Shown: positions 1 to 42,693 of the stretch, in pieces
Numbering within the stretch: position 1 is the first letter of the stretch
How the letters are laid out: each line of letters starts with the position of its first letter
Source: an uncultured Prevotella sp.
GTDB taxonomy: Bacteria; Bacteroidota; Bacteroidia; Bacteroidales; Bacteroidaceae
DNA: 64,000 nucleotides
Assembly (NCBI GenBank): GCA_947170725.1
Contig: CAMVUM010000002.1
Location: 124,001-188,000, forward strand
Direction: 5' to 3'
Notes under the pieces: model-generated
Databases searched by the model: none
What the model was told of the DNA's origin: nothing
What the model saw: only the letters and a program-made list of their open reading frames with translations
Translations under genes and position numbers: made by a program

Positions 1-115
1 CGTAGCTCGTGCTCGAGACCGAAGAAACGCCGCCCGCGCTCGCATAAACGAGACCGCCATTCGCATTCGCGTTGTTGTGCGCACGGCCAACGACACGGCA
101 CCGGCCATTAGAATA
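1..115 (-). other. Putative DGR variable region (VR) at the fibre C-terminus
   Basis: The final visible codons encode an Asn/Ala/Ser/Gly-rich string typical of DGR variable regions (NNANANGGLVYA, then SAGGVSSVSST). Near-fixed GCG, TCG and ACG codons alternate with AAC, AAT, AGC, GGC and GTC codons. These are what adenine-directed mutagenesis of AAC/AAT template codons would leave: positions 1 and 2 vary and the pyrimidine in position 3 is kept. The block is also richer in GC than the DNA just upstream in the gene. Extent is approximate, and the template repeat and reverse transcriptase are not in the window. Confidence 0.7.
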
Positions 116-16940: not shown

Positions 16941-19900
16941 CTATTGTTGCGCGTTTAGTTCCTCAACCATACTTTTTTTGAGACTGACTATTGCTCTCAC
17001 AAGGCTGTCACGCTGTGCAGGGGTCGCTGACCTAAGCCATTCCTTGGTCGCTTCGTCTATGTCGTGCTTGTACGATTTGACTATTTCGTACCGCTCATAT
17101 TCGGGTGTCTGCTCCAAGTCTGCCAGTTGGTCATAGTAAGCATCCTCATCGGTATCTTTCAGTTTGCGGATTTCCGAAACACGCTTCTTTGTTGCGTTAT
17201 ATTCCTCGATCCATTGTCCGATGTTCGGTGTGGACAGTTCATCGGTCTGTCGTCCGAGCCGCTCTTTGGCAAGAGTGTTGCTCTTTTTGCGATGCTTCTC
17301 CATCTGCTTCTCACGACCCTCATCTGAGTATGCCCACCCGGTGAGTGGTGCGTTGCGTCTTGTCTTGTATCGGGCGTATCGTTCTGCGATTTCCTGCGGT
17401 GTCATCCGGCTTGCCTCATCTCCACTCGCACCCAACTCGTCAAAATATATCTTGTCAAGCTGACTTTGCGGACAGTTGATTACACGGCTTATCAACAATG
17501 CACATTCTCTCTGTGAGTTCGCGTCATCACCACACGCATCTATCACGGCTACCACGGCATCGGTCAGTGATTGCGGATTCACACCCAATGCCGACTGCGC
17601 AAGTAGGTTCACCACATCATTCATCGCGGCTACATTATCCTTACCCATCTTGCGGTAGATGGTAGCGAGGTCTCCGGCAAGGGGCATTTCCTTTGTAAGA
17701 TTGCTCCAGTTGTCGTCTCCATTGAGCCACATCTGTCCGGCTGCACTATATACGTCACCGCCAGTCAGACCCTCTACGCTTCCGAAGTAAGTGTGGTTGA
17801 AAATATCATCCCACATTTTGTCCTTTTCTTCTTCATCGTCTCCGAGGAGAAGGTAGGGAAGATATGCGCCCATGTTCCATGCGAGTTGCAGGATAAAGCC
17901 GAATACAGCCACACGCGCCAAGTCGCGCACAATTCCTCTGCGATATTCGCGTTTGGCTTCTTTGTCTGCTGTGTCGGGGTCTATGCCGTCTCTGCGCATC
18001 TGCTTTGCCATGAACTCCTCACTCAATCCCTCATATCCCGATTGAAGTCTCCGGGAGAGATTGCGGATTGCGTCAAACTGCTGTCGTGTGTATGACATAG
18101 ATGAGTTGCGGAACACAGTAAACAGCACACTCAACCAAGAGCGGTCAACTTGAATAGTCGAGAGGAACGCACCCTCGCTTGACTGTTGTGTCTGATTGAA
18201 TAGGATTGTCGCATCCTGTCTGGCCCGCTTGTCGGCTTCTGCTTCATTCATACCCCAACGAAGATATTTCTTCTTCTTGGTCTGATACATCGAGTGTGCG
18301 CCTATTGATACCGTCAGCGCATCTACAAATGCGTTAGGCGACATACCTACACGCGATGCCAACTGCACAACTTTACTTCGCCATGCTTTCCAGTCCATTT
18401 CAGATTTCAGCAGACGCGGGTCTCCTGCCATGCGGCTTGTCCATCGTTTCTCAAACAATGGCAGATTTTCCATGCTCCAGTTCCATGCTTTCCACGGAGT
18501 GGCGATATTCTCTGCGAGATACAGAGGATTGCTGTCTGAAAGATAGGCTGGCATGGAGAGGAACTGCTTCAATGCGGTGAACACACGGAAACTTACCTTT
18601 GCGGCTGTCACACCCTTGGCGATGTTCACTGCGGCCTTGTCAAGAGCTGCAATCGGTGGGCGGTATGCACCTGCGGCCATACTGCACACATTGCGGAAGT
18701 TGTTCCACAGCGTCTTGCCTCCACCATACATACTGCTCATGTTCATCACTTGGTTTCTGAATCGCTTGTATGACAGCAGGGTGTTGAGGTCGCGGTTGAA
18801 CTCTGCGAACGCTGCCCACCGTTCCATCTGCTGAAGGTGGTCAAGTATCACGCTGAACGCATTGGCACCGGTCACGTCAAGGGCGAGGTTATTGCGTCTG
18901 CGCTTGATGATGCTCCCTGTTGAGGTGGCAGGGAGGGCGGTATCAGTAGTATCGTCTGCTACGTCCACCTCCTCCAATCGGGCATTGGCAAGTATCTTCA
19001 ATGGGAAGTAGTTCTCTATTGCGGCCATACTCGCACCGAACATTCGCTTGTGTACCTCGTTATATTCGTTACGCTTCTCAACCAAGAACTCCTCCTGCAT
19101 CCAGTCGGCAAGTTCAAGGAAGTGTGGATCGAGGAAATTCCTGATGTTCTCAATATCACTCTCGGTGATGCCCATCTTGCGCAGTTTCATACGTCCGTCC
19201 GACATCTTGTCAGCCATATAGATATAGAGCAGGTTACCTTGCGTCAGTTCGTGGTCTTTAGGCTCGCCTCCGTCCCAAAAGCGTACATTTGCTTTCGGAA
19301 ACTTGCGGTCGATAGTAAACAGGTCTCCCCATTTCATGTTGCGCCCATATACTTCACTGACTTTCTCGTCAAGGCGTTTCAATGCATCGCGGTAGCCTGT
19401 GTACTCCCTTTCGGTAGCATCTACCCATCCACGCATGTAACGGTTCCACAGATAACCCTCTCCACGCACATTCTTCTGCCCGAACATTCTCAGCATCTGG
19501 TCAAATGTGCCGAGAGGTGCAAGCAGGAAGCGCACCGCACTGTTGTTGACGAGTTTCTGAATACGGTCATTCTTGTGGTGTTCGTCCGTGGGTCTGCCCT
19601 GCATATCAGAGTTGGCGTTGTGGTGGATGGCCTCAACACGCTCTTTCTCTGCCTCGCGCCAAGCCTTGGCTCGCTCTATACTCTCCGACATAACGCCACC
19701 GACCTGCTCCACAAGTTCGTGGTAGGCTTCGGCTCGCTCTATCTTATTCTGTCTGATTGCGTCCTCGGTCGCGATGACATACTGCTTGTAGGCCGCATCG
19801 TCCATCTGACCTGCATCCTTGTCGGCTTTGGCTTGTCTGATGCTTTCTCGCAGTGCTTTTTCTTCGGCTTTGCTCTCTGTGACATTCTCAACAAACTGAC

Positions 19901-22900
19901 GGGCCAACTGCAATCCGGCATACTCTATTGTAGCTTCGTCTGCAATTGCGGTGTCGGTACTGCTCATGCGGTCAATAGCATCAGCAATGAGATTGTCAAT
20001 TTCATCTTTTGGTAGGGAAGTTGATTTCCTCACCACCTTGGCAACAGCCACGCCCTCCGGGTCAAGTTCTCCTTGCACCTCGATACCTCGCGCATCCACA
20101 CGGCTACCCTTTATGGTGAGCAACTTTCCGAGAGCATTAGCACCCATGCGCAGTTGGTTATCAACCATTATGTCCATTACTTTCTGAACATACTGGCTAA
20201 CGTCCTGCTTCCCGACAACATTATTGATTGTGCCGAGTATCCGCTTGGTCTCATACTTGCTCAAATCATCAAGCAGTCCTGCGTCAAGCATAGTCTTGGC
20301 AAGGTCGCTTATACTCTTTACCGTGGTAAGGTCATATTCCCTCTGTCGTGCCATTGCGCTACGCAGGTGATTGAGGTTGCCACCGATGGCTCGCATCGCA
20401 TCTCGCTTGGCTTGTAGATTGTCGCTGTTGGCTTGAGCTGCCTCTACTTTCATTTTGGTGATGGCTTCTTCAAGTCCCAGGCCACCGTCACGGAATTTCG
20501 TTGCAGGGTCTGAATCATAACCTGTCTTTCTGCGCATGGCTATATCCTCGGCTTTGGCAAACACTCCGTTCTCGCGCTTATGCTTCCATGCCTTGTAGAG
20601 AATATATGCAAGGTCTTTGTCGGTCAGTCGGATGCTCTTGGCTATTTTCAGTCCGCGAAGGAACTTGTTAAGGAACTGCTGAACCTTGGCCTTGATTTTG
20701 CCCCAAAGGGTCTGCTCCTCTTGGCTCATCTTCTCAAATCCCTTGTCGCCAATCTCTCCGGCCATATCTGCCATATACTCCTTGGTGGCTTCACGCTGAT
20801 AGTGACCATCACGTTTTTTGGCATTTGCCTCAACGGTGGCATCGGCTTTTGCAAACACACCGCCACCTTTCTGCCGGGTCATGCGGTCTATGTCATCGGA
20901 ATACTCCTTGTCGGCTCTCGCATCAATCTTTTTCTTGATACCCTGTCCGGCATGGTCATAAACCTCCGACACAAACTCATCCATACGTTCCGGCCCAATC
21001 ATAGCCTCCAATCCATCATGTCCCACAATCTCATGCACAACCGTGTTCTCGATGTCCGCAACATCAGTGTTGTTTGGAACAACGATTACAATTTCTCCAC
21101 CTGAAGTTATCCAACCTTTGGCATGACGCTGACGGCTTGTAGGCAGCATGCCTATTTCATCCGCAGAGGTTATAAGTGTAATGGGCGTGTTGAGTTTCCC
21201 TGCAAGTTCAACGGCACGAGCTTCCTTTTCAGTGCTTGGTTCGGCCTCATATTCATCTATATCATCATCTATCTCTCTGAACTTGGTCTTATCGCCATTA
21301 GTTTCTGATGGAGTCTCGTCCTCATCCGTGAGTTCTACATTGGAAGCTGCCTCAACGCCCTTGTCAATTTCGGCATACTTCTTCTCTTTTTCCATCATTT
21401 CCTCACGCATCTTCTCTGTGTATTCCTCCAGTCGCTCCTCGGCTACTTGCAACTCTTTACTGAATGGGAACTCCTTACCATAACGCGCTTCCATCTGCGA
21501 CAACTGTTCCGTGTGGTTGCTAAGGCTATACTGGGCATCTTTCAATAATTTCTGTGAACGTGCGCCCGTAGCGATGTCCTCGGCTATAATCTTCATAGCC
21601 TCCTTCAGTCGCATGTAGGGTACATCCTCTTTAATGCTCAGTTCCTCACACTCCAGTGTCATAGATGTGGATGTGTCAAACGCTATTTGTCCGTTACTCG
21701 ACACAACACGCTCTATATCGGTAGTGACAACGAAGTCAAGACCGTTAACATTGACGGTGAGAGTGCTGTGGTATGCTTCCCCGGCTCCCTGCACGTTATC
21801 CGCGGCTTCTTTCTTCTTGGCGTTCTGTTCCTTGAAGAAGTCCTCCATTGCCTCGACACTGTCAAAGGAGAGTTTACCGATGGTGATTTTGTCTATCTTG
21901 CCATCGGGGAAGTGCTTACCTATGGTTTCAAGGTTGGCTGTCTCGATCTTGATTCTGCGTTCTGCCCCTGCGATGAAGCCTTTCTCTTTCGGAATTGAGT
22001 TGTGGAGATAGATTTGGTCTATCTCATGCTGTTTGAGTTTGGAAGTAAGACTGCGCACCTCGCGTTCAGCTTGGTTCTTCAGTATGGCATACTGGCTTCC
22101 CGACAACTGGGCGGTCATGTCACCAAACTGGTCCTCCTCTTCTTCAAGCACTCGGTTTTCCATAGAGTTCTGCATCATCTTTGAGCCGTTCATAATGGAG
22201 TCCGCTATCGCGCCTTTGGTTTTCAGTCGCTGATATGCGGTCACATCAAGGCTGTCCTCGACACCAAAACGGAGGACACGGACAGGTATGCCCATGTCTT
22301 TATGCAGGTTTCCTTGTCGCAGGATACGTCCGTTGCGCTGTGTGTAGTCCATCGGGCGGTTGGGTGCGTCCACATGGATTGCGGTATGCAGTCGCTCTTG
22401 GATATTCACACCTGTGCCGAGGGTAAAGGTTGAACCCATTACCACGCGGATTTCTCCGGCGTTGACTTTCTCGAATATGTCCAGTTTCTTCTTGATAGTC
22501 ATGCCCGACTTGATGATTACAATCTGTTCTTCGGGGACACCTGCCTTGATAAGTTTCGCCTTGATGTCCTCGTAGAGATTGAATCCACTGCGCTTGTTCT
22601 GATAGTTATCGGCAAAGATGGCAACAGAGCCTTTATACTTCTTGCTGTCCTCCAGTGAACGCAGGGTCTCACGCACGGCTGCATTGGTCTTGCTGTTGGG
22701 GTCGTCCTCAGCATCTGAAATGACAAGACGAGCATCAACGGCTGCGGCCTTTGCTATGCCATACATCGTAAGAGGGATATGGCTGTTCTCTTTCTTTTCC
22801 TTGCCAGTCATATCCTCATAGCGTTGCAATTCTTTCTTCACAAACTTCATTACGCTTCGCAGGGCGCGTGTCTGTGGCAGGAAGATGTCTTGCGCCTTAC

Positions 22901-25900
22901 CTCCCTCAATATCGGGTATCTTGTCGCTGACACCTCCTGCCTCACGAGTGAGAACGGTATCGGATACCCCGCTCCATATTCTGACGAGTTCCGGCAGATT
23001 GACATATCCGGCAAAGCGGTTTACCTCGTCAAACTTGCCACTGGTCTTGAACTCAACCATTTGGGAGATATTGCCGAAGTTGCGCACGAAATCATCAAAG
23101 TAGTAGATGCCATACTCCTTCATCGTGTCGGCTGGCATAAGATAGCGCATGAACGTCCATATCTCGGCCGCAGTGTTGGAGATTGGCGTACCGGTGGCGA
23201 ACACAACGTTACGTCCGTGGTTGCGCTCCAGTACGGCTTGCGTCTTTAGGAACACACCCTGCGACTTCTTGGAGTATGATGGGTCAACACCTTTCACGCC
23301 ACGTTGCATTGCCGTAGCAAAGCCGAGGTGCTTGTATTCGTGTGCTTCATCCACAAGGATAGCATCAATACCCATATCATCAAAGTTCTCCACATCGTCC
23401 ACATCACGGTCAAGCATTTCCATTGCCCTTACCTCCGCGTTCTGACGTGTGGTGGCTTCTTTCTTCTCGTCACGCTTCTTGCCCTGCTTCCTTTCTCGCT
23501 TTTCTTCCAACGCCTTTGTGATGTCGGCAAGTTCAGCCTCACGGTCGGCAAGTTCTTTCTCTGCCTGACGTACAATAGGGTTTCGTCCGTCCGTATCATC
23601 GGATTCGCGCATAGCTTCCAACACCATCATCTTCTCTTCGATGATGTTCTTGATATATGCCATTTGTCGTTCCTCGCTGTCGGGGATGCGCTCAAACACC
23701 GACTGAGGTACTACAATCATATCCCAGTCGTTGTATTTGATTTTGGCGTAGAAGTTCTTACGACCCTCTGCCGTGCGGTCGGCTTCCTCAATGGTCAGCA
23801 CTTTAGCATTAGGGTATATCTCCTTTGCGCTCTCCACAAACTGACCGACTGTTGCGTTCTGCACAACTATCATCGGTTTTCGTGCCGTGCCAAGTCTGCG
23901 CATCTCCATAGCGGTGGTGATGAGCGTAAAGGTCTTGCCTGTTCCCACTTCATGAGCAAGCAGGACAGGCTCTGTTGTGCCACGCACCACGGCTTTACCT
24001 TGATGTGGACGCAGGGCAAACGGACGACCGTGCAATTCGCTTACCTGCCCACCGAAATGAGTAGGCACAAACTCATCGGGGATTGACATAGGAACATAGT
24101 TGTTGAACCTCTCGTTGTAAGTATGCTCAATCAGTGCTGACATTTCCGGGTCAGTCTGCATCTTGCCTCGCGCCCAGTCCTTGAACTCCGAGCGTATCTC
24201 GTCAACTTTGGTAGAGCAAGCGTTGGTTGCTTCGCGGTCGGTTATGGTCTCGGTCGTGCCGTCCCATTTCTTTGTGGTTCTGCTGACAGTGATAGAGCGG
24301 TTGGTCATCGCAGCTTCTATCAGTTCGTGTCCCATGATGGTCTTGTCACAGAGTTTGCTGACTACTGCCATAGCACGGTTCTTCTCATTGGAGATGTTCC
24401 ACGGAGTTTTCATAAACCATGTGCCACCGACATTTGTCAGCTGCACTCTGATTCCTGTCTTTTCCGCCACAAAGTCCTCATATAGTTTTGGATCGATCCA
24501 AGATGAACCGATTGAAAATTCTATGAGGTGGGCAGGGATTGTCATAGGCAACGCTCTTTCCAGTGCGGTGATGTTCGCATCATAGCGACCATCCTCGTTA
24601 TTCTCCTGCGCGATGTGCAGTTTCTCACGCACATTGCCCGAAAGATACTGGTACGATACTTCCATCATGCCGTTGGCCGGGTTCTCAAAACCCAGTCCAC
24701 TTTCAACAATCTCACGTCTCACTTCCTCGGTCGGTTTGCCAAGTGCATCTGCGATGTAGTCAACATCCACACCGCCGTTCTTGTAGAGGCTTGCAAGGAT
24801 ACCGTCTTTGATTGTTGTAGGCTGAGGCTCTTTCTCGGTCTCAATTACGCGTCGGGTGAAGATGTCGGTTTTTCCGACACGTACAACCTTGTTGCCATTC
24901 TTGTCTCCCTTCTCTGAATAGGTTTCAAGAGCGAGAATACTTGAAAAGTCAACATCGTTGCGCAGGAATGAGATTGCGGTATTCTTGTGCAGGTTGCCAT
25001 AAGTGCGTGTGAATGAATCAAACGCATGGTTCAACTCTGTCAACAGCGGCTCCAGTCCGGCATTGTCCTCGTGTGTTGACTGGTATTCCAGTACATCCGA
25101 CAATGCTTTCTTGATGGCGGTGTATGCCTTGAAGCACTCTGCCTTGGTGTGACCCTTGACTTTGTTCTTATTGAGTCCGAGGGGAACAGCTTCACCCATT
25201 CTTGCCATGCAGAGTTCTCCCTGCGAGTTCAACACCATGCTTCCCTCCTTGACACCCTCGCCAAGCTGCTCGTTGATTTTGCTTGCTGTGTCCTCTATAC
25301 TCTCGGTAGCCTGTGCTTCCTCAACCATGTCGCTGAAACGGCTTGCCCACTGTTTCAACATTTCGCTCTGCGGTTTGCCCTTGGCAGGGAACAGAGCCTT
25401 GCTTGTCGGCTGATAGGTTTCGCCACGCTCAAAGTTGAACATCATTTCTCCGGCCATGTTTTCGGGATGTTCAGCAAAATATTTGTTGAACTCCAAACTC
25501 ATGCGCTTGATGATGGGAACTTCCTGACCTTTGACCTTGCGAGTGTCCCCAGTATTATATTCAACCACACGCACACCTGTCACATCGGTGATGTCTATGG
25601 CATTGGGTGATACACGACCGTTTACGCGCTTGCGTACCACAATGATGTCCGAAGTCGCCCCGGTGCCTCCGAATGTCTTGTTGTGCATACGGAATGCTCC
25701 GACAACATCAGCGTTACCCTCGTTGGTTATCCATGCACGGAGGCGAGCGGAGTTGTCCATCGTTCCGCTTGACGTGATGAATATACCGATACCACCCTCA
25801 CGCAGTTTACGTATATTCTTCGCTATGCAGAAGTCATGGATGTCGTGGAATTTGGTAGAGAGGTCTTTGTCGCCAGTATGGTCAAACACTTTGAGGCCTG

Positions 25901-28900
25901 TTACGAACGGCACATTGGTGATGGCAAGGTCGATGCTGTTATTACGCACCTTTACATCTTGGAAGCCTTGTATATCCACCTTTGCATCAGGATAGAGCAA
26001 CGAGAGGATACCGCCTGTTGTGCTGTCTATCTCAACAGCATGGATATTACTGCGGTCGCTGAACTCGCGTGGCATCAATCCGAGAATATTGCCGATACCT
26101 GCCGAGCCTTCAAGAATGTTGCCACCCTTGAAACCCATAGCCTTGACTATATCCCACATGGTGTCTATGACCTCCGCAGGTGTATAGTAGGCCGACCTGC
26201 GGCTGTCTATGGCATCTTGGAAACCTTGCTCTCCAAGCAGTTTAGTCAAGACATTGCGCAGGTAGGTTGTAGTGCCGTCTGCATTGTACGCTCCATAGGT
26301 GTCCTCTTTGAAAGCCTTGCCAAGTCCACCCCAACCGCTGAACTTGCGCAGGATGGTCATCTGCTTGGGCGTAGCCTCGTCTCCGCTTTCAAGGAGTTGC
26401 TGTGCTAAACGGATTGCTTCAAGGTTTGCCTTGATTCGAGCCTCATCACCCTTGGGCGCATAGTCTGTACCTCGCTCTGCATGGTTGTTGCGCGAGTTCT
26501 TACGTTCGCCCTCTGCGAGTGGAGTTAAGCGTTCTGCGCTCTCATGTGATCGAGATACGCCTCCGCTTCGCTCTGCGTCAGACACAGAATGGCTGACACC
26601 ACGTCCACCCATTCCTCGTCCGTCAGTTCGTTCAGCTTCATTCCGCTGGCTCTTTCCCAACGGTTCATTCTGTTGAGGTTCGTGTCCTCTTTCTCGCTCG
26701 GTAGAGCCGGAGCGAGATTGTACGTCAGTTTTCTGCTCATTGTCTATCGCTTCATCGAACAGTCCGCTGAATAGGTCGCCAATCGGCTGTTCGGGTTTAA
26801 CTTCGGGTTGTTTCTTCTTTGAGGGCGCGGGGTTCTTTGCCTCACGTTTCGCTTTCGCTTGTTCGGCTATATGAGCGGCTTCCTCAAAGATGTTTTTGGA
26901 TTGGGGTGTCTGCGGCTCCTGCTTTTCAATCTGCGACCACTCGCAAGACTCATACATCACCGGGGCCATGCCAGTGTCAAGTGTTACATCAGCACCGCCA
27001 CCGAAGTCAACAATGGTCGCAAGTTCACGCTTGCCCTTGCCGTCATTCCGGGTGTACCATACTTTTTCACCAACCTTAAAACCGTTCTTTTCGGGTTCGG
27101 TGATTTCGTGACGGTCCCAATATCCACCTGCATCATACGGCTCTGCCTCGGATTTGCGCTGTTCGGCTAATTGTGCCTCGACTTCGGGTGTGACAGTATA
27201 TGGCGACTCTCCACGCTCCATACGCTCTGCCATCTCCTTGACAAACTCTGCCGACGACTGCTCCTGCTTCGGCAGATAGTCTTTGGCTTCACGCTTGACG
27301 AGGTCGAGCAATTTTGCATAAGTCACGTCCTTGTCTGCATAACAATTGTGTCCATAGCGTTCCATGCCACTGCCGTTAGGATTTTCCACGCGATACATTA
27401 TGCTATCGTTAACAGCAAGGTTGTCTCCACGTTTCCATGTTCCTCTCTCGGCTACTGGGTCAAGTCCTATGTAGATACACAGCTCACGTCCCTCCTGCAA
27501 GGGTAGTGCAATAGTGATGTCGCCACCTGCCGGGGCGAGGTTTGCCCTTACCGCAGTGCCTTTCTTCACTTTCTTACGACCGAGGGGAGTTGTCGCTCCT
27601 GTTACCTTGATGTCAAGACCGAGGTCATTGACCAACTGCTTGGCAAGATTGGTGGCATCTGTCACGGCTTTCTTTTCTGCCGTCAGCATGTACCCATAAC
27701 TCTCATGGAACTTGGAATCGTCCATGTCGGCTTCATAATACCCAAGCAGTGCCAACTGCTCGTTCACTTCGTCAAGTGTATCGTCTATTTCTTCTGCGGC
27801 TCGGTTGAGTTCGTCTCGATCTGCTGAAGTTTCTGCGACACTTTCCGCTTTGCTTGCAACAGCCTCTGCTTTTTCTCCAAGAGCTGCTGTACCTGCTTCT
27901 GTTTGCTTGTCATGCTCCTTACGTTTTTGGTTTCGGGTTTCAATTACTTCTTTTTCGGCCTGGGATGTTGCCTCCTTTGCCTTGCGCTCCGCAACAATCA
28001 TCTCGGCCTGTTTCAGTGCGTCTGCACTCGGTTTGTCAAAGTTGGCTATGTCAAAGCGGTCTATCTCCGCATCGGAGGTAAACTGCATATCCTCATAGCC
28101 GGGGACAATGGTAGCGTTCTTGTACATTGCCTTTATCCACGGCTTGATTTTCTCGCCAACCATACCTACCATGACTTTGGCCACTGTCGGAAAATCGGTC
28201 TTGCCTTGGTCAAACAGACGCATAGTGAGGTCTATGCCAAGCATGACGAGTTTGCGCTTCTGTTCCGGCTTCAGTTCGTCCGGGTCACGGAAATGTACAC
28301 CGCCTATCTCGCTGTCATCAACACCCAAGATGTCACGCATCTGCTTGGCGATGTCCTCCATCTCGTCAGTTATCTGCACCTCCGACTTAGCCTCTATCGG
28401 CTCCGCATGGTCGCTCAACTTGATTTCACCTTTCTGTCGCAGACTTTCTGCCAAGTCCTCAACACTTACACGGTTGATTGGTGCTTTCTTCGGCTTGCTT
28501 GCAGGAGCAACAGCCTTACTGATGTCCTCACGACTTAATGGCTGTGCGTCTGCCACCGCTTCCTCATTGCCAATAAGGTCTCCTGCCTTACGCGCATCCT
28601 CCTCCGTGCGGAACAGCCACTCAGAAAAAGTGTCTTTGTCAGAACACCAACCACGGGACTTCCTGCCATCCGTCTTTTCACGTGCAAAAGAGGCCAACGC
28701 CTTGCGCTGTTCATAGGTGGGTGGCGTTGTGAACTGCAAGGAGTGCATCGGTGTTGTCTTACCTGCCTTGTTGGTGTAAGATGATGGTACGATAGTATAG
28801 GGTACAGACTGGGTCGCAGGTACAACCTTTTCGGCAGTTGACGGAGCAACCTCCGTAACATCAACGGCTTTCACATTCTTGTACTCCTTGAAAGGCTTTG

Positions 28901-31900
28901 TCTTGCGCTTGCTTGACTGAATCCACTTCTTGAACTCATCCTTGCTTACGCCAGTCACATCCAGTCTCCTTGTCTGCTCCCATCCCTGCTCATAGTTGGC
29001 GAGGTACGCATTAAGGGCAGCCTTGCTGTCAGCAAAGCCATACATCACTTTATGCTCGTCAAACGACCCATCGGGATTGTACTGGTCAACCACAAACACA
29101 TCGCCCTGCTCCGGCGTGTCGGAGAGGAACACGTCTATGTGGTCACCATCGACACCCTCTGTGCCACGGATATATCCGTAGTCGCTGTGCATCTCCGATT
29201 CCCATTCCGTGCCATTGGCATCCTTGCCTCTGCGGATCGAACCTTTTTCATTTTCAATGCTGATGTCATAGCCGTCTATGCGGACGTGCTTCATTTTGTA
29301 GTTCCCGGCTTTCTTCTGTGCCTCAGTCGGTTCTGCGGCAGGAGCATCAATGTGATTCACGATTTCGGCAATGTCACCAAAACGCTTGCCTTCATACTCA
29401 AAGTATGAGCCAGTATAATGACCGTCTGTGTCCGGCTCATCAACCTGCACCGCATTGTGCTTGCCATCAATGATGATGGTGCGCTTGTATGTCGGGCGTT
29501 TTTCGTCACCCTCCGTCCAATCATCTTCGCTGACTTCCACACGGGCCGCGATAGCCTGTTCTTCGGGTGTTAGGTCGGATTCTGTTCCTGCTGAGGGTTG
29601 TTGAGGCTCTGCACTGCGTTGAATAGCATCCGCAGCTTGTTCACCTGCTTGGTCTCCTCCACGTTGTTCTGCCTCGGCTTCGGCTCTTGCCTTGCGCTCC
29701 GCAATGGCAGCGTCCACGAGTGCTTGCTGTTCTCTTGGGGTTGCATTTTTGAAATGTTCGTTAATATTGGTGAGTATTTCTTCTTTAGTCGGGATTGAGC
29801 CGGAGAACATATCTATCTGTCCGTTGGCTGATGATGAAGCCTCGTTGTTGTAAGAGGTCAGCACCTTGCGTATGTCGCTCGGCTTGCCGCTGTTCAACAG
29901 GTCGGCAAGCAGGAGGGTAGCACCATCGGTCACACGGCTGTCGCCAAACTCATCATCAAACAATCCCTGCATACGTCCGAAAGGTGATACTGGCATACCA
30001 TCGGTATATACATCCGGCATTGCGCTCTTGGCTCTGTACACAAGGTCAACGGCATCGCCAAGTTCCTTTGATAAGTCGTAACCCTGCTTGGCAAGTGTGC
30101 GGTTTCCTGCAATCTCGTTCAATCCCATCACGATTGACTGACGCAGTGTCGGCATGGATATAATTTGACGCACGGCATCGGGCGAGGTTTGGAACACCTT
30201 GCCGATTAGAGTATTCTCAATAAGTTCTTTTCCTGCGGCCGACAATGCTGTCCCGGTCCGCATTTCGGGCATCTGCTTATCGTTGATAACTCCGGCCTGC
30301 ATCAATGCGCCCAGTGCGTGTGCAACGGCTTTCTCATCCCCGTAGTAGTCGCTCAGTCTGTCGTAACGCGCGATGTCGCCAACAATGTTGTTGAAAACAT
30401 CATCGGGAACAATCTTGCCGAGTTTCACTGCGGCTTCGGGTTTTGACTGCGACTTCATCTCTTGCGCGTTGAAGCGTGAGAATGTAGTGGCATCGTAGGG
30501 AAGTGTTTCATCAGGAACAAAGACAAGACGTGGGTTCTTCATGCCCTGCACCTGCTCCGGCGTGAAACCATACTTTGCTCCGAACTCTCGCAGATAGTCC
30601 ACATAAGCCTTGTCTGTTCCCTGACGCGCGGCGAGGTCGCCCGACATGGTGCGGTTGTTGCCCGAAAGCACAACACCGTCCTTGCTGACGATGACTGGAG
30701 TCTGCAACGCCCGGTTGTCGTATGCTCCTGCCATCTGTTCAACAATGCGCTGTGCGTCCTTGTCGCGCTCATAGTCGCGGTCATTCACACTCTGTCCGTT
30801 CTCATCAATCGGGAAACCCTCGGTAGGCATATAGGCGTTGCCCACATCATGGCTTGCAGATGCGGCTCCTGCTTCGGTCAGAACATAACGTCCACGGATA
30901 GACGAGCCATCGGGGAGTGTGATTGCATCGGGATTTCCCTCCAACTTCGGTGCTGAATCCCAACGTGCCTTTATCTTCGGATTGACCGAATGTGTGCCTA
31001 TCGCTTCCTGCTCGGCCTGCTTCTCTGCCTTGATTCGCTGTTCCTCCTCAAACCTTGCCACGGCTTCATCGTGCGCCTGTGCGTCACGCGCTCTGCGTTC
31101 CGCTTCCTCCTGCGCACGTCTCTCGGCATTGCGTGAGGTATAGACACCCATGATGCCGTTCCACGCACTCTGACGACCCTCAGCCTCGGCTAACTGATTC
31201 TGATAGTCAGCCATTGCCCTCTGATGCGCTTCGTTGGCTTCGCGCTTGGCTTGTGCCATAGCCATAGGAGAGCCTTTGAGTTTTGGTGCTTTCAGCGTGG
31301 GTGGCTTCTTCTTCAAGGCTTCAAGGTCGGTCGATGCTTGCTCGATCTGCGCCATAGCAATATCGACTGCATCCTTTTCTCCGCCGACAGCCTCAACAAG
31401 TCCATCCCAGGCCGTATCCTTGTCCACAGCCTCAAACATCGGCTCTCCTGTTTCGGTATGGAGTGGTATGCGCTGGAGTGCGGTCTGCTGTCCGTTTTCT
31501 ACGGTTGAGACCGTTTCGGACACGTTTTTTGCATCTAAAACCGCATTTTCCGTAGGATTGGGAACGTTTTCTTCGGTTTTGGGAACGGCAGCTCCTGCGC
31601 GGTTTTGCTGAACAAACTCCAGTGCTTCCAGTCGTCCACGGATATAATCATCCACGCGACCATTCTCCTGCATCTGCTTTTGCGCTCCCTCACGCAGAAC
31701 ATCTACATAATGGTCAAGACGTTCATCGGATAGGTTCTGCGCTTCCTCTATGGCATCGCCATAACCTTTGTCGTATTCCTCAACATTGACCACTGGAATA
31801 TTTTCACCCTCGTTGTTGCCATCTGTTGGAATATTTTCAGATGTGGTGTCCGGCTCTGTTACCTCGGTGGGAAATACGTTGCGACCTGCCTCAACCTCGG

Positions 31901-34900
31901 CAAGAGCGTTGGTAAGTTCGGTCTGCGGATCGACCGCTTCACCAATCTTGAAGATTTGGTCGGGAGAGGTAAATTCAATCTCGCCTTTCTGTGGGTCAAG
32001 TATCACAACGCTTTGGTCGGAGTTGCGCACGTCAACACCGGTCCCGTCCTCAAACATCGTCACATTGCCCTTGACAATATACACCTGTCGGTCGTCAACT
32101 TTCATCGTGGCAGGTATCACCACACCTGCATCCTTGTGGGTGCGGTCATCAACTGCCTTGGTCACCGCCTCGCGCTTGCGGTCGGCTGATTCATTGGCCG
32201 CATCCTGCACTCCGTCAAGAGCTGCCCTTGAATTGATATAGTAGAGAACAGCATCCTGTTGGTCAACGGTCAGTTCGGGATTGGTCAGCAAATCCCACGG
32301 ATTTTCGTGTATTTCTGCCATCCGTGCTTCTGCATCCGTACCGAAAGCATCCTCAATGCCCTCCAATGCCTCGCGGTAGCGCAGAGCGATAGCGTCCATG
32401 TCGGCTCTTGCCTCGGCTTGCTCCTCCGGCGTTCCCTCCTCAAACCGTCCATGAAGAAGTCGTCCCTCATCATAATTCCGCTCTGCCTCCTGCTGTTCGG
32501 GAGTTGGCATAGGCTCATCGGGCGTGTTGCCATCATTGAACTTTTCGCGGAACTCTTCGGGGTATAGTCGCTCCATGTAGGTCTGCACTGCTTCTTGCTC
32601 CTCCTTGGTGCGGTCGTGAGGTTGCTTGCGCAGAGCTGCGTCAACGTCAACACCAGTCTCATTCTTAATTTCAGAGCGCAATGTTTCGGGGCGCACGTCA
32701 TTACCTGCTCCTGCGTTGCGGTCAATAGCCTCATCAAGCAACTCGGCCAATGCCCTCTGCGATTCGGTCACGTCATTGTCGCCACGCTTCACCTTGTCGT
32801 AGATTTCCTTGATGGTGGCGTGGTCTGCTCCGGGAGACACTGCATTGACAGCGGCTTCAAAAACCTTGCCGTCCGCTTCGGCCTCGCGGTATTGCTCGCC
32901 AATATCAATGGTGTTCAGTTCGGCTTGTCGCTGAATACGGCTCATTTCGGCATCTGCCTCCTGCTGATTCTTGAACTTACGGCTCGTCACTACACCACCT
33001 TGTGCGTTCATGGAGTTGACGATTATAGAACCGTCCTGCCCGTTGGTGATGGAGTTCCAACCGACAACGCTTGACATCGGAAGCATACGCCCGGTGAGAA
33101 GATAATACATCTTGGCGCGTGTCGCTTCGCTCACGCGTCCATCCTCCATCAACCGCTCCATTGTCGAATAGCCGTCAAACTCCGCTTTGCGGTTCGGGTC
33201 TGCTATCTCCTCGGCTTCCACGCGTTCGGCTCTGACCTCTATAGCTCCGTCCTCTGCCTTGGCTGTCGGTTTTGCTTCGGACATAGGCTTATCCTTGCCG
33301 AACAGGTCAGCGAGTTCGCCATAACCTGCCCGGCGCAGTTCCTCACGTTCATCAGTGGAAACTGAAAGCACTGTCGGGGATGTATCAAGGCTGTTGCGAA
33401 GACGTTCCACAAAACTCTGTCGGTTGTGGTTGCGTTCTGCTTGGGTCTTGGGTTCTTTGATTGGTCGCAGTCCGGCAATGACCCTCGGTGCGCTTTTCAG
33501 TCCGTGTTGAGCCTTGAAGCCTGCCATCATCGCAATGTTGTCAGTCCACACGTCAAAAGCGTCTCCCTCTCCGTTTATCCATTCGGGGATAGAGAACACC
33601 GTACCCTCGGCAAGCGTTGACACTGCAACCTCACCGAAGCGCACACCTGCTTTCCCTGCGGTGCTTGTGGTCGCCTTGACGGTCTTGTCAGCGACATTGC
33701 CAATGAGTGGCGAGAACGTACCTGTCACACCGCCCATCACAAGACCGTGACCACCTGCTTTGAGGACATCTCCTGCGGAATAGTCACCGACCTCAAGAGT
33801 TTCGGGATTGAGGACACCGCCATACACAAACTGGCGTTCACCCTCCTTCATCATTTCATAGGTTGCAAAGTTGGTCGCGCCTCCTGCGGCTCCAGTAATG
33901 ACACGACCACCAAGTGAAGATGTAAAAAGACGTGAGCCAACCTGCCGTGTCATTCCGTTGGCGGCTCTGCTTGCCACGATGCGCCCTCCGACATTGGTAG
34001 CGGTCTTTGCTCCTAATGAGCCGACACCGCCCGAAATCCAAGTTGTGGGGTCAAGAGCCATACCGACAACAGTACCGCCAACCTGCGCCACGCGGTGGTT
34101 CTTGCCGTATTCACCCATTGCAGCTTCGTATGCAGGGAGGTCACCAATCTTGTCTCCTGCGCCCATTCGGGTAATACCTTTGCTTAGGGAGTTTATAAGG
34201 TTCATGTCTGCAACCTGCCTACCGAAATACTCCAATGTGCTTTTGGGGGTATTCTTCTTAACAGCATACTGATACACCGCATTGTCCGACAACGACCGAG
34301 CCATCTGCGTAGCCATTGTATGCATGGCAATCGGGTCATCATTGGGGTTTTGACGCGACAAAGTTGCATAGAACTCGCGTATGAGTTGGTCTTGCCCTGC
34401 CTCGCCCAATCGCTCCCATGTGTTATCCATCATGGTTTGCAGGTCAAAACGTGTCAGATGCGACTTCTCGCGGTCATATCGGTCAGCAGCCGTGGTAACA
34501 ATGCGCATTTCACGACCTCCACACATAGACGCATAACTATCCCAATGCTTCTTCGCGCTCTTCTCAACATCAGCAGCGTGTTTCTCCTCGGCTTCTTGCC
34601 ACAACTCTGCAACATGTTTGTAGATGGGTGCTTGCATATCCATCTGTGCTTGTTGCTGAACATCCTGCGGTTTGCTCGGATCGAGACCATTCTCTTTCAT
34701 CCTGCCGATGAACTGATGTTCCAGTCGGTTACCACGAGCCACAAATTCCGCTTGGTCGGCTTCAATTAGGTTGGTGGTAAGCCGTCCATCGGGCAACAAC
34801 CATTCTGTCACACGCTTTCCGTTCACAATCTTCGTTCCGTATGGAACTGGAGACTGCAAACTCTTCACTGGCTTTGGCTGTTCGCCTCCCTCGTTCTGTT

Positions 34901-38212: not shown

Positions 38213-39706
38213 TCAGAAACCTTTCCCCTTGGTGCGCTCATATACCACCTCGCGGTCAGTGTCAAGATTCTTAATGCGGAACTGCACCGCACACTTGTCG
38301 GGGATTGTGTCAGGAAGTTGCCTCGCCAGTCGGTCTATAACCTCATCCACGTTGCTGAAACCGATGTCGCTCACCTCCGCAAGAACCTCACCACGGAAAT
38401 ACGCCCTTGCATAGACCATCATCTTGGGTGAGAGCCGGAACAACTTGTCTTTCGGCTCGTCAACATCCCGCGCCCCTCCCTGCTTGCTCTTGGCGTTGGA
38501 GAAGAATATAAAGTCAATGACCTTGGCGTTCAACTCCCATGCAGGAGTGAAGTCAATCTTGATGTAGCCTCGTGTGACGGTGTGTCCGTGGCTGTGATTC
38601 ATCCCGAATGCCACCTCGGCAATGGTTGCGGCGCAGTCATTCTGCGCTATCGTACCCCAAGTATGCCGGAACGTATAGGCGCAATACCGCTCATGCTTTG
38701 GTATTTCCATCGCCTTGCACACCTGCTTTATGCCCGTGTTCACATTGGCGTTGAAGCTGTCCGAGTCACAGAACCGCTTATGGAATGTGAACAGATACGG
38801 GTCAGCCTCATCTGCGAGATACTTATCAACTATCGGCTGTATTATCGGCTCAACCCTCATCTCGATATACGCATCATCCGTCCGTGCCTTGCGTGTCTTG
38901 GCTCTGCGGTAACCGATAACACCATCATGGTAGTCTTTCTTCTTCAGTTCGTAGAGGTCAACCGTGTTGATACCTGCAAGGCATAGTATCAACTTAGCCA
39001 CATCACGCCCCAGTTCGGGAAGAGGGTCAATCATCCTCGTCTGTGGCAGGGGAGCGGAAAAGAACGCCCGGCAATCCTCCGCACTGATGGCTTTCTTCTC
39101 GGCTCGATCCGCTTGCGGTATTTTCACCTTGCCCCACGGATTGGTCTTGATTCTGATGATGCCGTTGTCATAATCGTTCATCTCGTCAACCGCAGCTCTG
39201 AACACCTGCCTCATGCACACTGGGTACATCTCCTTCGCCCGGTGCGTACCCTCCAACGACTTTATCCATCGGTTCATCTGCATGGAGGTCAGATGCCCGA
39301 ACATGATTTGTGTTGTGCCAAAGAACCGCTCCATGTGTTGCAGAGCCAGTTTGTAGTTCTTGGAGTTCCTCAACTGCCCATTGTCAATCATGCGGTCAAT
39401 GTGCTTACGTGCATAGTCGCTGAAACTGATGTCCTCGTTACCTTTCAGCAGATAGTCCACAACCTCAGCGACAGTCCACTTGCTGATGTCCTTTCTGTTC
39501 AACCGCTCGTTGTACTGCATAATCCGCTCCGTGCAGTAGTTCATCACGAACGGGTCTTTAATCTCATTGGTCTTGGTCAGTTCCTTTCGGGTCACCATCT
39601 TGTCAGTCTTGATGTATCCGTGACGCTTGCTGTGCGTCACACGGATATAGACTTGCAAGAAACCATCCTTGCGCTCACCGCGCACAGTTGCTTTGAATGT
39701 TGCCAT
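38213..39706 (-). CDS. Tyrosine recombinase / phage integrase, 497 aa
   Basis: This site-specific recombinase integrates the prophage. An N-terminal arm-binding-type domain (about 1-90) and a SAM-like core-binding domain (about 95-200) lead to the catalytic domain. The second-Arg box is YTFRHTWGT; the C-terminal box is NHSHGHTVTRGYIK with the nucleophile Tyr near residue 380. The first-Arg box reads LAGINTVDLYEL, without Arg at the usual place, and the HxxR His is a Tyr. Such changes occur in some Bacteroidetes integrases but may affect activity. A C-terminal extension of about 115 residues follows the nucleophile, longer than usual. The gene is followed by a strong terminator and faces the ppdK 3' end. 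Confidence 0.9.
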   Translation of the reverse strand: MATFKATVRGERKDGFLQVYIRVTHSKRHGYIKTDKMVTRKELTKTNEIKDPFVMNYCTERIMQYNERLNRKDISKWTVAEVVDYLLKGNEDISFSDYARKHIDRMIDNGQLRNSKNYKLALQHMERFFGTTQIMFGHLTSMQMNRWIKSLEGTHRAKEMYPVCMRQVFRAAVDEMNDYDNGIIRIKTNPWGKVKIPQADRAEKKAISAEDCRAFFSAPLPQTRMIDPLPELGRDVAKLILCLAGINTVDLYELKKKDYHDGVIGYRRAKTRKARTDDAYIEMRVEPIIQPIVDKYLADEADPYLFTFHKRFCDSDSFNANVNTGIKQVCKAMEIPKHERYCAYTFRHTWGTIAQNDCAATIAEVAFGMNHSHGHTVTRGYIKIDFTPAWELNAKVIDFIFFSNAKSKQGGARDVDEPKDKLFRLSPKMMVYARAYFRGEVLAEVSDIGFSNVDEVIDRLARQLPDTIPDKCAVQFRIKNLDTDREVVYERTKGKGF

Positions 39707-39972: not shown

Positions 39973-42693
39973 TTACTCTTCGATGGCAGCCTGCGCCGCA
40001 GCCAGACGAGCGATAGGCACACGGAACGGAGAACATGAAGCATAGTTCATGCCGACCTTTGCACAGAACTTCACTGAGCTGGGTTCACCACCGTGCTCAC
40101 CGCAGATACCGGTACGCATGCCCGGACGGACAGCGCGTCCCTTCTCTACAGCCATCTTAATGAGCTGACCCACACCATTTTGGTCGAGCACCTGGAACGG
40201 GTCAACCTTCAGGATTTTCTTGTCCAGATAAGCGGGCAGGAAGCTGGCGATATCGTCACGAGAATAGCCGAAGGTCATCTGAGTCAGGTCGTTTGTTCCG
40301 AACGAGAAGTACTCTGCTTCTGAAGCGATACGGTCTGCTGTGAGTGCCGCACGCGGTATTTCTATCATCGTACCAACTTCAAATTCAACCTCAACGCCTT
40401 CCTCGGCAAACACTTCCTTGGCGGTCTTCATGATGATTTCCTTCTGCTGCTTGAACTCATAGAGAATACCAATCAGCGGAACCATGATTTCCGGAATGGG
40501 GTTCTTGCCTTCCTTCTTCAACTCGCAAGCCGCACCGAGGATGGCACGTGTCTGCATTTCAGTGATTTCGGGGAACGTGATACCCAAACGACAGCCGCGA
40601 TGACCCAACATCGGGTTGTTCTCGGCCAGACTGGCAACACGCTTCTGAATTTCGTCAACGCTAACGCCCATCTCTTCTGCCATGGTCTGCTGGCCCTTCA
40701 AATCGTGGGGAACAAACTCGTGGAGTGGCGGATCAAGCAGACGGATGTTGACAGGACAGCCGTCCATAGCGTCAAGGATACCCTTGAAGTCAGCCTTCTG
40801 ATAAGGCAGCAACTTTGCAAGAGCCTTCTTGCGGCCTTCAACAGAGTCGGCCAAAATCATCTCACGCATAGCCACAATCTTCTGATCCTCGAAGAACATG
40901 TGTTCCGTACGTGTCAGTCCGATACCTTTCGCACCGAAAGCACGTGCTACGCGAGCGTCGTGGGGAGTATCGGCGTTCGTACGAACCTGAAGTTTGGTGT
41001 ACTTGTCGCAGAGGTCCATCAAATCCTTGAAGTCACCAGACAACTCGGCTGCCTTTGTCGGAATCTCACCGGCATAAACCTGACCTGTTGATCCGTTGAG
41101 CGAGATATAGTCACCCTCTTTATATACGACACCCTCTACCTCGACTGTCTTATCCTTGTAGTTGACATTGATTGCACCTGCACCTGAAACACAGCACTTA
41201 CCCATACCGCGGGCAACAACGGCTGCGTGAGACGTCATACCGCCACGGGCTGTCAGAATACCCTCGGCTGCCGACATTCCGGCGAGGTCTTCAGGTGAAG
41301 TCTCTATGCGGACCATAATCACACGATGGCCATCAGCGCGCCATGCCTGAGCGTCGTCTGCGTGGAAGACAATCTGTCCGCAAGCAGCGCCAGGAGAGGC
41401 GGGAAGACCCTGTGTGATGACCTTGGCCTTCTTCAGGGCGTCCTTGTCGAATACCGGATGCAACAGCTCGTCGAGCTTCTGAGGCTCGCAGCGCAGCAAT
41501 GCGGTTTTCTCGTCAATCTCGCCTTCACGCAAAAGATCCATGGCAATCTTCACCATCGCCGTACCCGTGCGTTTTCCGTTGCGGGTCTGGAGGAACCATA
41601 GTTTACCCTCCTGTACGGTGAATTCCATATCCTGCATATCGTGGTAGTGCTTCTCAAGCTTGTTCTGCAGTTCGTCGAGAGTCTTGTATATCTCCGGCAT
41701 AGCCTCCTCCATAGAGGGGTATTTGCTTGCGCGCTCTTCCTCGCTGATGCCCTGCAGAGCTGCCCAACGGCGTGAGCCTTCCTTGGTGATCTGCTGCGGT
41801 GTGCGAATACCGGCGACAACGTCCTCACCCTGTGCGTTCACAAGATACTCACCGTTGAAAAGGTTCTCACCCGTAGCGGCGTCACGGCTGAAACATACGC
41901 CTGTAGCCGAAGTATCACCCATGTTACCGAAGACCATGGCCTGAACATTCACGGCCGTACCCCACTCTGCGGGAATACCTTCCATCTTGCGATAGAGAAT
42001 GGCGCGCTCGTTCATCCAAGAGTCGAACACAGCACAGATGGCGCCCCAAAGCTGCTCCATGGGGTCTGTCGGGAAGTCCTTGCCGGTCTGCTCCTTGATG
42101 GCAGCCTTGAACTCAGCCACAAGCTGCTTCAGTTCGTCGATGGTCAGTTCATTGTCAAGTTTGATTCCACGCTGTTCCTTCACTTTCTCAATGATGGCCT
42201 CGAACGGGTCGATGTCCTCTTTGTTGACAGGTTTCATACCGAGCACGACATCACCGTACATCTGTACGAAACGACGGTAGCTGTCATAAACGAAACGCTC
42301 GTTTCCTGTCTTCTTGGCCAATCCGGCTGCAACCTCGTCATTGAGACCGAGATTGAGGATGGTATCCATCATTCCGGGCATAGAGGCGCGGGCACCGGAA
42401 CGCACGCTGACGAGCAACGGGTTCTCTACGTTACCGAACTTGCTGTTCATCAGACCTTCAATATGAGCAACGGCGTTGTTTACGTCTTCTTTCAAAAGCC
42501 CAACAACGTCTTCCTTACCTTTCTCAAAGTATTCATTACATACGTCTGTAGTAATAGTGAATCCCGGGGGGACAGGCACTCCGATAAGGTTCATTTCCGC
42601 CAAATTGGCACCTTTACCTCCGAGAAGGTTTCTCATGTCAGCCTTACCCTCTGCCTTACCATTGCCGAAGGTATAAACTCTTTTCTCACTCAT
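39973..42693 (-). CDS. ppdK: Pyruvate, phosphate dikinase
   Basis: This cytoplasmic enzyme interconverts pyruvate + ATP + phosphate with phosphoenolpyruvate + AMP + pyrophosphate. The N-terminal ATP-grasp half starts with GNGKAEGKADMRNLLGGKGA. The phosphohistidine domain carries GGMTSHAAVVARGMGKCC, whose His carries the phosphate. The C-terminal PEP-binding barrel has FGTNDLTQMTFGYSRDD and GICGEHGGEP with the acid/base Cys. The length of 906 residues matches bacterial PPDKs. It is a single-gene unit with its own promoter (42750-42782) and terminator, and is the first host gene beside the prophage. With pyk nearby it makes PEP/pyruvate exchange reversible, as in many anaerobes. Confidence 0.97.
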   Translation of the reverse strand: MSEKRVYTFGNGKAEGKADMRNLLGGKGANLAEMNLIGVPVPPGFTITTDVCNEYFEKGKEDVVGLLKEDVNNAVAHIEGLMNSKFGNVENPLLVSVRSGARASMPGMMDTILNLGLNDEVAAGLAKKTGNERFVYDSYRRFVQMYGDVVLGMKPVNKEDIDPFEAIIEKVKEQRGIKLDNELTIDELKQLVAEFKAAIKEQTGKDFPTDPMEQLWGAICAVFDSWMNERAILYRKMEGIPAEWGTAVNVQAMVFGNMGDTSATGVCFSRDAATGENLFNGEYLVNAQGEDVVAGIRTPQQITKEGSRRWAALQGISEEERASKYPSMEEAMPEIYKTLDELQNKLEKHYHDMQDMEFTVQEGKLWFLQTRNGKRTGTAMVKIAMDLLREGEIDEKTALLRCEPQKLDELLHPVFDKDALKKAKVITQGLPASPGAACGQIVFHADDAQAWRADGHRVIMVRIETSPEDLAGMSAAEGILTARGGMTSHAAVVARGMGKCCVSGAGAINVNYKDKTVEVEGVVYKEGDYISLNGSTGQVYAGEIPTKAAELSGDFKDLMDLCDKYTKLQVRTNADTPHDARVARAFGAKGIGLTRTEHMFFEDQKIVAMREMILADSVEGRKKALAKLLPYQKADFKGILDAMDGCPVNIRLLDPPLHEFVPHDLKGQQTMAEEMGVSVDEIQKRVASLAENNPMLGHRGCRLGITFPEITEMQTRAILGAACELKKEGKNPIPEIMVPLIGILYEFKQQKEIIMKTAKEVFAEEGVEVEFEVGTMIEIPRAALTADRIASEAEYFSFGTNDLTQMTFGYSRDDIASFLPAYLDKKILKVDPFQVLDQNGVGQLIKMAVEKGRAVRPGMRTGICGEHGGEPSSVKFCAKVGMNYASCSPFRVPIARLAAAQAAIEE

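Follow-up and report, generated by a model that had tools for sequence, protein, structure and literature searches.

A likely diversity-generating retroelement with an RT-3 spacer RNA at the end of a giant fibre-like gene in a putative Prevotella prophage

What acts on the 3' end of a giant fibre-like gene with which a stretch of Prevotella DNA begins? The stretch, hereafter the window, comprises 64,000 nucleotides of an uncultured Prevotella sp. (GCA_947170725.1, contig CAMVUM010000002.1; G000:C2:124001-188000), and an earlier note on it had proposed, from this single copy, that the gene end is the variable repeat (VR) of a diversity-generating retroelement (DGR). To follow this up we analysed the window together with the flanking locus L004 (C2:112001-132000), in which window coordinate equals L004 coordinate minus 12000 and positions left of the window are negative. 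We consider it highly probable (roughly 0.9) that the window begins in the VR of a prophage DGR that likely rewrites the tip of the giant fibre by adenine-mutagenic copying of an invariant template repeat (TR). What began as a guess from one truncated repeat is now a full DGR open to testing, in a prophage that encodes a giant fibre-like protein.

Repeats, reverse transcriptase and fibre-like target

The cassette is arranged on one (minus) strand in the order fibre gene with VR, TR, RT-3 RNA, reverse transcriptase (RT) and DUF4376 gene:

Window -18..104 (L004 11982-12104), minus strand: VR, a 123-nt repeat of the TR; 1..104 lie inside the window, and the last 19 bases, which hold the end resembling an initiation of mutagenic homology (IMH) site, lie left of it
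Window 8446 down to -76 (stop at -76), minus strand: fibre-like target gene of 2840 aa, an open frame with the VR at its C-terminus
Window -122..-97, minus strand: candidate hairpin, read from the sequence
Window -324..-202 (L004 11676-11798), minus strand: TR of 123 nt, a direct repeat of the VR
Window -466..-356, minus strand: RT-3 RNA, Rfam match of 54.9 bits (gathering score, 40.5)
Window -2153..-477 (L004 9847-11523), minus strand: RT of 558 aa, an open frame, DGR-type by profile and fold
Window -2667..-2164, minus strand: DUF4376 gene, Pfam match of 41.6 bits

TR and VR form a 123-nt direct repeat of 89% identity. The TR has 26 adenines within the 115-nt core, and 11/11 core differences between TR and VR fall at template adenines, for which the chance is ~1.1e-8 if sites are independent. 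All 11 changed bases are within the window, at positions 4-79; they convert AAC codons to CAC, AGC, GGC, GTC or TAC and leave the GCG, TCG and ACG codons unchanged. Three further adenine differences at the 3' end, beyond the core, are constant in our locus and in L012, L013, L015 and L018 and were therefore left out of the mutagenesis count; we read this constant three-base difference as a putative IMH/IMH* boundary. Read in the fibre frame, the core contains Asn codons at 12 places besides a single TAT and a single ACG, and randomising every core adenine would, by computation, yield ~4.5e15 codon versions and ~2.1e15 protein versions with no stop codon. A search for a third TR copy in the same genome returned none: its four other matches measured 14-22 bases (E > 1) and are chance, so the TR has one VR only in this genome.

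These results confirm the observation of the earlier note and support its interpretation. It had taken the fibre C-terminus for a DGR target cut by the window edge, with fixed GCG, TCG and ACG codons, and had placed an RT and an adenine-biased template repeat within a few kb to the left; the VR indeed sits at the gene end and crosses the window edge, the start of the RT gene is 477 bp beyond that edge, and the TR occupies the stretch 202-324 bp left of it. Where the note had one copy to reason from, TR and RT have now been located, as have independent versions of the VR (see below). The candidate hairpin between VR and TR has the same form in L012 and L013 and is absent in L015 and L018.

The RT carries YCDD and GLRASQ, the latter of which we take to be the GxxxSQ motif. 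Its best match, by profile and by a fold comparison that barely covered the C-terminal domain, was the solved DGR RT of BPP-1 (8ub7), retron RTs ranking lower. At 558 aa versus 328 aa for the BPP-1 enzyme, it possesses an extra C-terminal domain (residues ~417-558; window ~-2153..-1725) with a predicted beta-alpha-beta-beta-alpha-beta order and positions that are invariant among 33 relatives. Named relatives of RT and fibre belong mostly to Bacteroides phages, Prevotellaceae and Muribaculaceae, with single records of metagenome-assembled genomes named Kiritimatiellae and Lachnospiraceae.

A C-type lectin fold is common, though not universal, in DGR variable domains. The fibre-like protein matched a PHROGs family of unknown function (2229.7 bits) and is homologous, over 939 aa at 26% identity and running through the VR, to the DGR target of hankyphage, for which a C-type lectin domain is reported (PMC6199706).

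Variation among relatives and present activity

Independent versions of the VR were found in related loci. The IMG/VR locus L012 has an RT 96% identical to ours and a TR identical over 123 nt, and between its VR and ours the core shows 13 differences, 13/13 of them at template adenines (chance ~2e-10). Divergence between the two loci amounts to 31/896 bases in the fibre DNA near the VR, 66/1677 in the RT gene and 1/152 in the TR-RT spacer. Adenine-biased differences between TR and VR recur in L013 (11 A, 1 C), L015 (7 A), L017 (7 A) and L018 (13 A), counts that include boundary differences where these fell inside the scanned stretch. A search with the fibre C-terminus revealed 468 relatives, of which 120 listed ones were aligned and the 53 closest, our own included, were measured for column entropy. 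Mean entropy was 2.71 bits in the 12 template-Asn columns, 0.39 in the 26 other VR columns and 0.69 in 300 other columns (Mann-Whitney p 3e-7 and 2e-9, respectively, for the comparison with template-Asn columns); some non-Asn VR columns also vary, at 1.1-1.4 bits (alignment columns 361, 380, 381, 388 and 392). Both L012 and the 53 fibres thus display the variation at adenine positions that the earlier note had anticipated for related genomes.

A repeat of another composition occurs in L083 (minus strand, near 166-188), where a TR-like upstream flank is joined to a VR-like 3' end, with T or C at several template-adenine sites; no RT was found on its 44-kb viral contig.

We propose that the TR-RT transcript would fold into the RT-3 structure and be bound by the RT, and that the cDNA would be started where TR and RT-3 meet, in keeping with what is reported of the spacer in BPP-1. 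Copying of template adenines would be randomly error-prone and the cDNA would replace the VR up to the IMH-like end, so that each new fibre C-terminus could alter what the virion can attach to.

Several observations weigh against this reading. An AlphaFold model of the L012 fibre C-terminus, built from four sequences, was unusable (predicted local distance difference test score, 30.5). A PDB sequence search with the L012 fibre C-terminal domain returned nothing at E up to 1, and a PDB search with a 21-fibre profile gave weak matches only (E 0.04 or more), none of them at the C-terminus. A C-type lectin fold of the fibre C-terminus, receptor binding by the variable tip and present activity of the DGR are predictions. 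Finally, the Avd profiles PF05635 and PF22296 had no match on the contig of the cassette and matched other contigs only, none of the cassette-strand open reading frames (ORFs) of at least 20 aa between fibre stop and RT had 60 aa, and the BPP-1 system does require Avd (PMC12875486).

The missing Avd match would suit a DGR that was once active in the lineage and has fallen silent in this prophage, through a missing factor or decay of the phage, with the VR left as a frozen variant. RT, TR, RT-3 and fibre are all intact, however, L012 combines an identical TR with a different VR, and the fibre C-terminus has its 468 relatives; we regard silence as unlikely. To our knowledge, not every DGR has an accessory protein. 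A small gene follows the RT in 7/7 loci compared (our own, L012, L013, L015, L018, L099 and L100), with Pfam DUF4376 above cut-off in five, below it in L100 and absent in L013, and this DUF4376 neighbour could be an unrelated helper. For hankyphage, Avd is marked in a figure legend (PMC12135933) and a small Avd-like ORF is mentioned near the RT (PMC6199706), the gene meant being ambiguous in the available portions of both papers; if this ORF is the DUF4376 gene of hankyphage, our locus has a counterpart. A natural DGR without recognisable Avd would provide a setting for studying the purpose that Avd serves.

The RT-3 RNA between template and reverse transcriptase

The sole Rfam match in L004 11200-12300 was the RT-3 RNA (RF03068). 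It spans the model from first to last position, minus 43 positions near the 3' end, and begins 31 nt past the TR and ends 10 nt ahead of the RT start codon. Rfam types RF03068 merely as a small-RNA gene; the RT-n motifs were reportedly described by Weinberg in 2017. RF03068 is a curated structured RNA, for which the Rfam 15 paper gives 8 additional covarying pairs (PMC11701678), and PMC7657543 treats it as well, in the available text for its structure only. The literature searched yielded no published function of RT-3 and no link between RT-3 and DGRs, which the original RT-n description or the Rfam entry may state; the terms 'Rfam' and 'RNA structure' are absent from the available text of a large DGR survey (PMC8144416). 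A search for RT-2 (RF03077) in 393 genomes gave no match, but its controls were equally silent, so it is uninformative on other RT-n RNAs.

Next, we determined how RT-3 is distributed across loci. Among RT-bearing viral, phage and genome loci, excepting L069, RT-3 was detected in 23/26 searched; the three misses were L033 and two loci whose sequence starts inside the RT match or near it, L019 and L026. Among the genomes of the host family, 23/399 contained RT-3, at 32 places (31 above cut-off), of which 30, our own included, were taken as loci. A TR/VR pair with RT-3 behind it was present in 23/30, the best 60-nt window being free of non-A mismatches in 22 and having two in L103; the other seven showed 13-18 non-A mismatches. 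When 10 viral or phage loci were added, TR/VR pairs were present in 30/40 loci and a related RT followed RT-3 in 39/40, the exception (L120) stopping at the contig end. Wider stretches of the seven pairless family loci contained no VR, and each has, by eye, a TR-like repeat directly upstream (that of L108 identical to the L105 repeat, that of L129 weak). Twenty further or repeated loci had a nearby VR in L025 and L033 only. In 10 records searched with a TR, the TR was found in 10/10 and a second adenine-biased copy elsewhere in 4/10. In G843 (10/11 differences at A), G846 (15/17) and G850 (9/9) this VR shares a contig with the TR at a distance of ~26 kb, and in G849 (12/12) it is on another contig; three more copies (L153, L154 and L155) were not adenine-biased. 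The loci of the distant, same-contig pairs are:

L141/L150
L147/L152
L142/L149

RT-3 can thus serve as a marker for DGRs of this lineage, including those with a distant variable gene, as in these three records. In total, an adenine-biased VR was found for 34/53 RT-3 loci (the 30 above, L025, and L024, L029 and L068) and none for 19, many of them on short contigs; several RT-3 loci are near copies, and the counts are not independent events.

Given the RT behind RT-3 in nearly all of the 40 loci and the adenine-biased VR for 34 of the 53, RT-3 is likely the DGR spacer RNA of our lineage and the probable start point of copying. The same assignment is suggested by analogy with BPP-1, since RT-3 is a curated structured RNA and the BPP-1 spacer between TR and brt stands in the equivalent place, where it adopts a fold, brings in the RT-Avd complex and supplies the internal adenine that primes the cDNA (PMC12875486). 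More tentatively, at somewhat less than even odds, RT-3 may be the RNA core of a whole DGR lineage of Bacteroidales phages, a counterpart of the BPP-1 spacer that carries the template and starts the cDNA, and which here would have shrunk to a short form working without classical Avd, the RT C-terminal domain or the DUF4376 neighbour serving instead. With RT-3 as the spacer RNA, an RNA family for which we found no published function would be offered a role, and that assignment is the part likeliest to interest specialists.

Two observations speak against such a role. Energy folding of our TR-RT spacer gave a z of -0.34, i.e. no excess stability, and in L033 a TR/VR pair with adenine-only differences accompanies a related RT (29%) although no RT-3 reaches the gathering score; the L033 spacer may have diverged too far or may be a different type of RNA. 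L033 would also fit RT-3 as a leader outside the template RNA that controls how the RT gene is transcribed or translated, as would its end just ahead of the RT start codon, a position that by itself suits both roles. Such a leader is doubtful in view of the behaviour of the BPP-1 spacer, the mere 31 nt that separate RT-3 from the TR, and the near identity of the spacer between our locus and L012 compared with their RT genes. An RT of a retron, group II intron or defence system, next to unrelated repeats, has next to no probability: weak cross-matches to such RT profiles exist, but the repeat differences are adenine-only, a DGR RT is best by both profile and fold, and L004 11200-12300 yielded no group II intron RNA, RT-3 being the only match at E up to 1 in this search, which covered the near side of the RT.

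PADLOC matches of the enzyme to DRT profiles were weak cross-matches, and a DRT-type defence RT was rejected. Elsewhere in the genome there are two more RT matches, which lie side by side and which PADLOC assigns to Drt3b and Drt3a of an anti-phage defence system (L001 379-2568 and L002 949-2403; G000:C1, ~252.5-256.1 kb).

Prophage setting and comparison with known systems

Portal, terminase, endolysin and holin matches were found around the cassette. The integrase on the right abuts the host gene ppdK, and a second copy of the ppdK 3' end, sharing an identical core of 14 bp, occurs at C2:98605-98728:

Window -25285..-25272: putative left attachment core, 14-bp identity in the duplicated ppdK end
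Window 38213..39706, minus strand: phage integrase (PF13102, 3.6e-6; PHROGs integrase, 7.4e-18)
Window 39986..39999: putative right attachment core, within the ppdK 3' end, 14-bp identity in the duplicated ppdK end

From the integrase beside ppdK and the duplicated ppdK end we infer that the element sits in a prophage of ~65.3 kb, in line with the prophage presumed in the earlier note. An empty-site comparison was uninformative, as none of the ppdK flanks from nine loci of the same genus matched the sequence left of the prophage, and its ends are therefore placed by the integrase and the duplicated ppdK end. The window also contains a single ORF of 6169 aa (16941-35450, minus strand), one half of which matches DarB-like antirestriction, DNA methyltransferase and helicase families, and the other half of which resembles that DarB-like family, among others, over a short stretch.

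DGRs in Bacteroides phages are already known from hankyphage, and ours is a further member. Hankyphage (Bacteroides phage p00, BK010646) has the same order of target with VR, TR, RT-3, RT and DUF4376 gene, an RT 32% identical to ours and adenine-only repeat differences, and its DGR is reported to be active in culture (PMC12135933). It differs in being a transposable phage according to the same paper, whereas our prophage has an integrase, and its RT-3 scores 146.6 bits versus 54.9 for our short form. The Bordetella phage BPP-1 resembles our system in the structured spacer between TR and RT (PMC12875486) and provides the best match of our RT; unlike in BPP-1, no avd gene was found between our VR and TR, and our RT is longer by its extra C-terminal domain. 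The likeness to BPP-1 lies in RT and spacer, a kinship of its Mtd to our fibre being hypothetical. Bacteroides phage BS-TP4 (PQ571277) shares an RT 38% identical to ours, the presence of RT-3, a fibre 47% identical over 1656 aa and a repeat with 10 adenine-only differences; in contrast to our locus, its VR gene and TR are separated by genes for a RelE-like toxin and an XRE regulator (L100 4968-5628). Compared with the Rfam family RT-3 itself, our copy is a full-model match above cut-off, though short, and is here placed inside a DGR.
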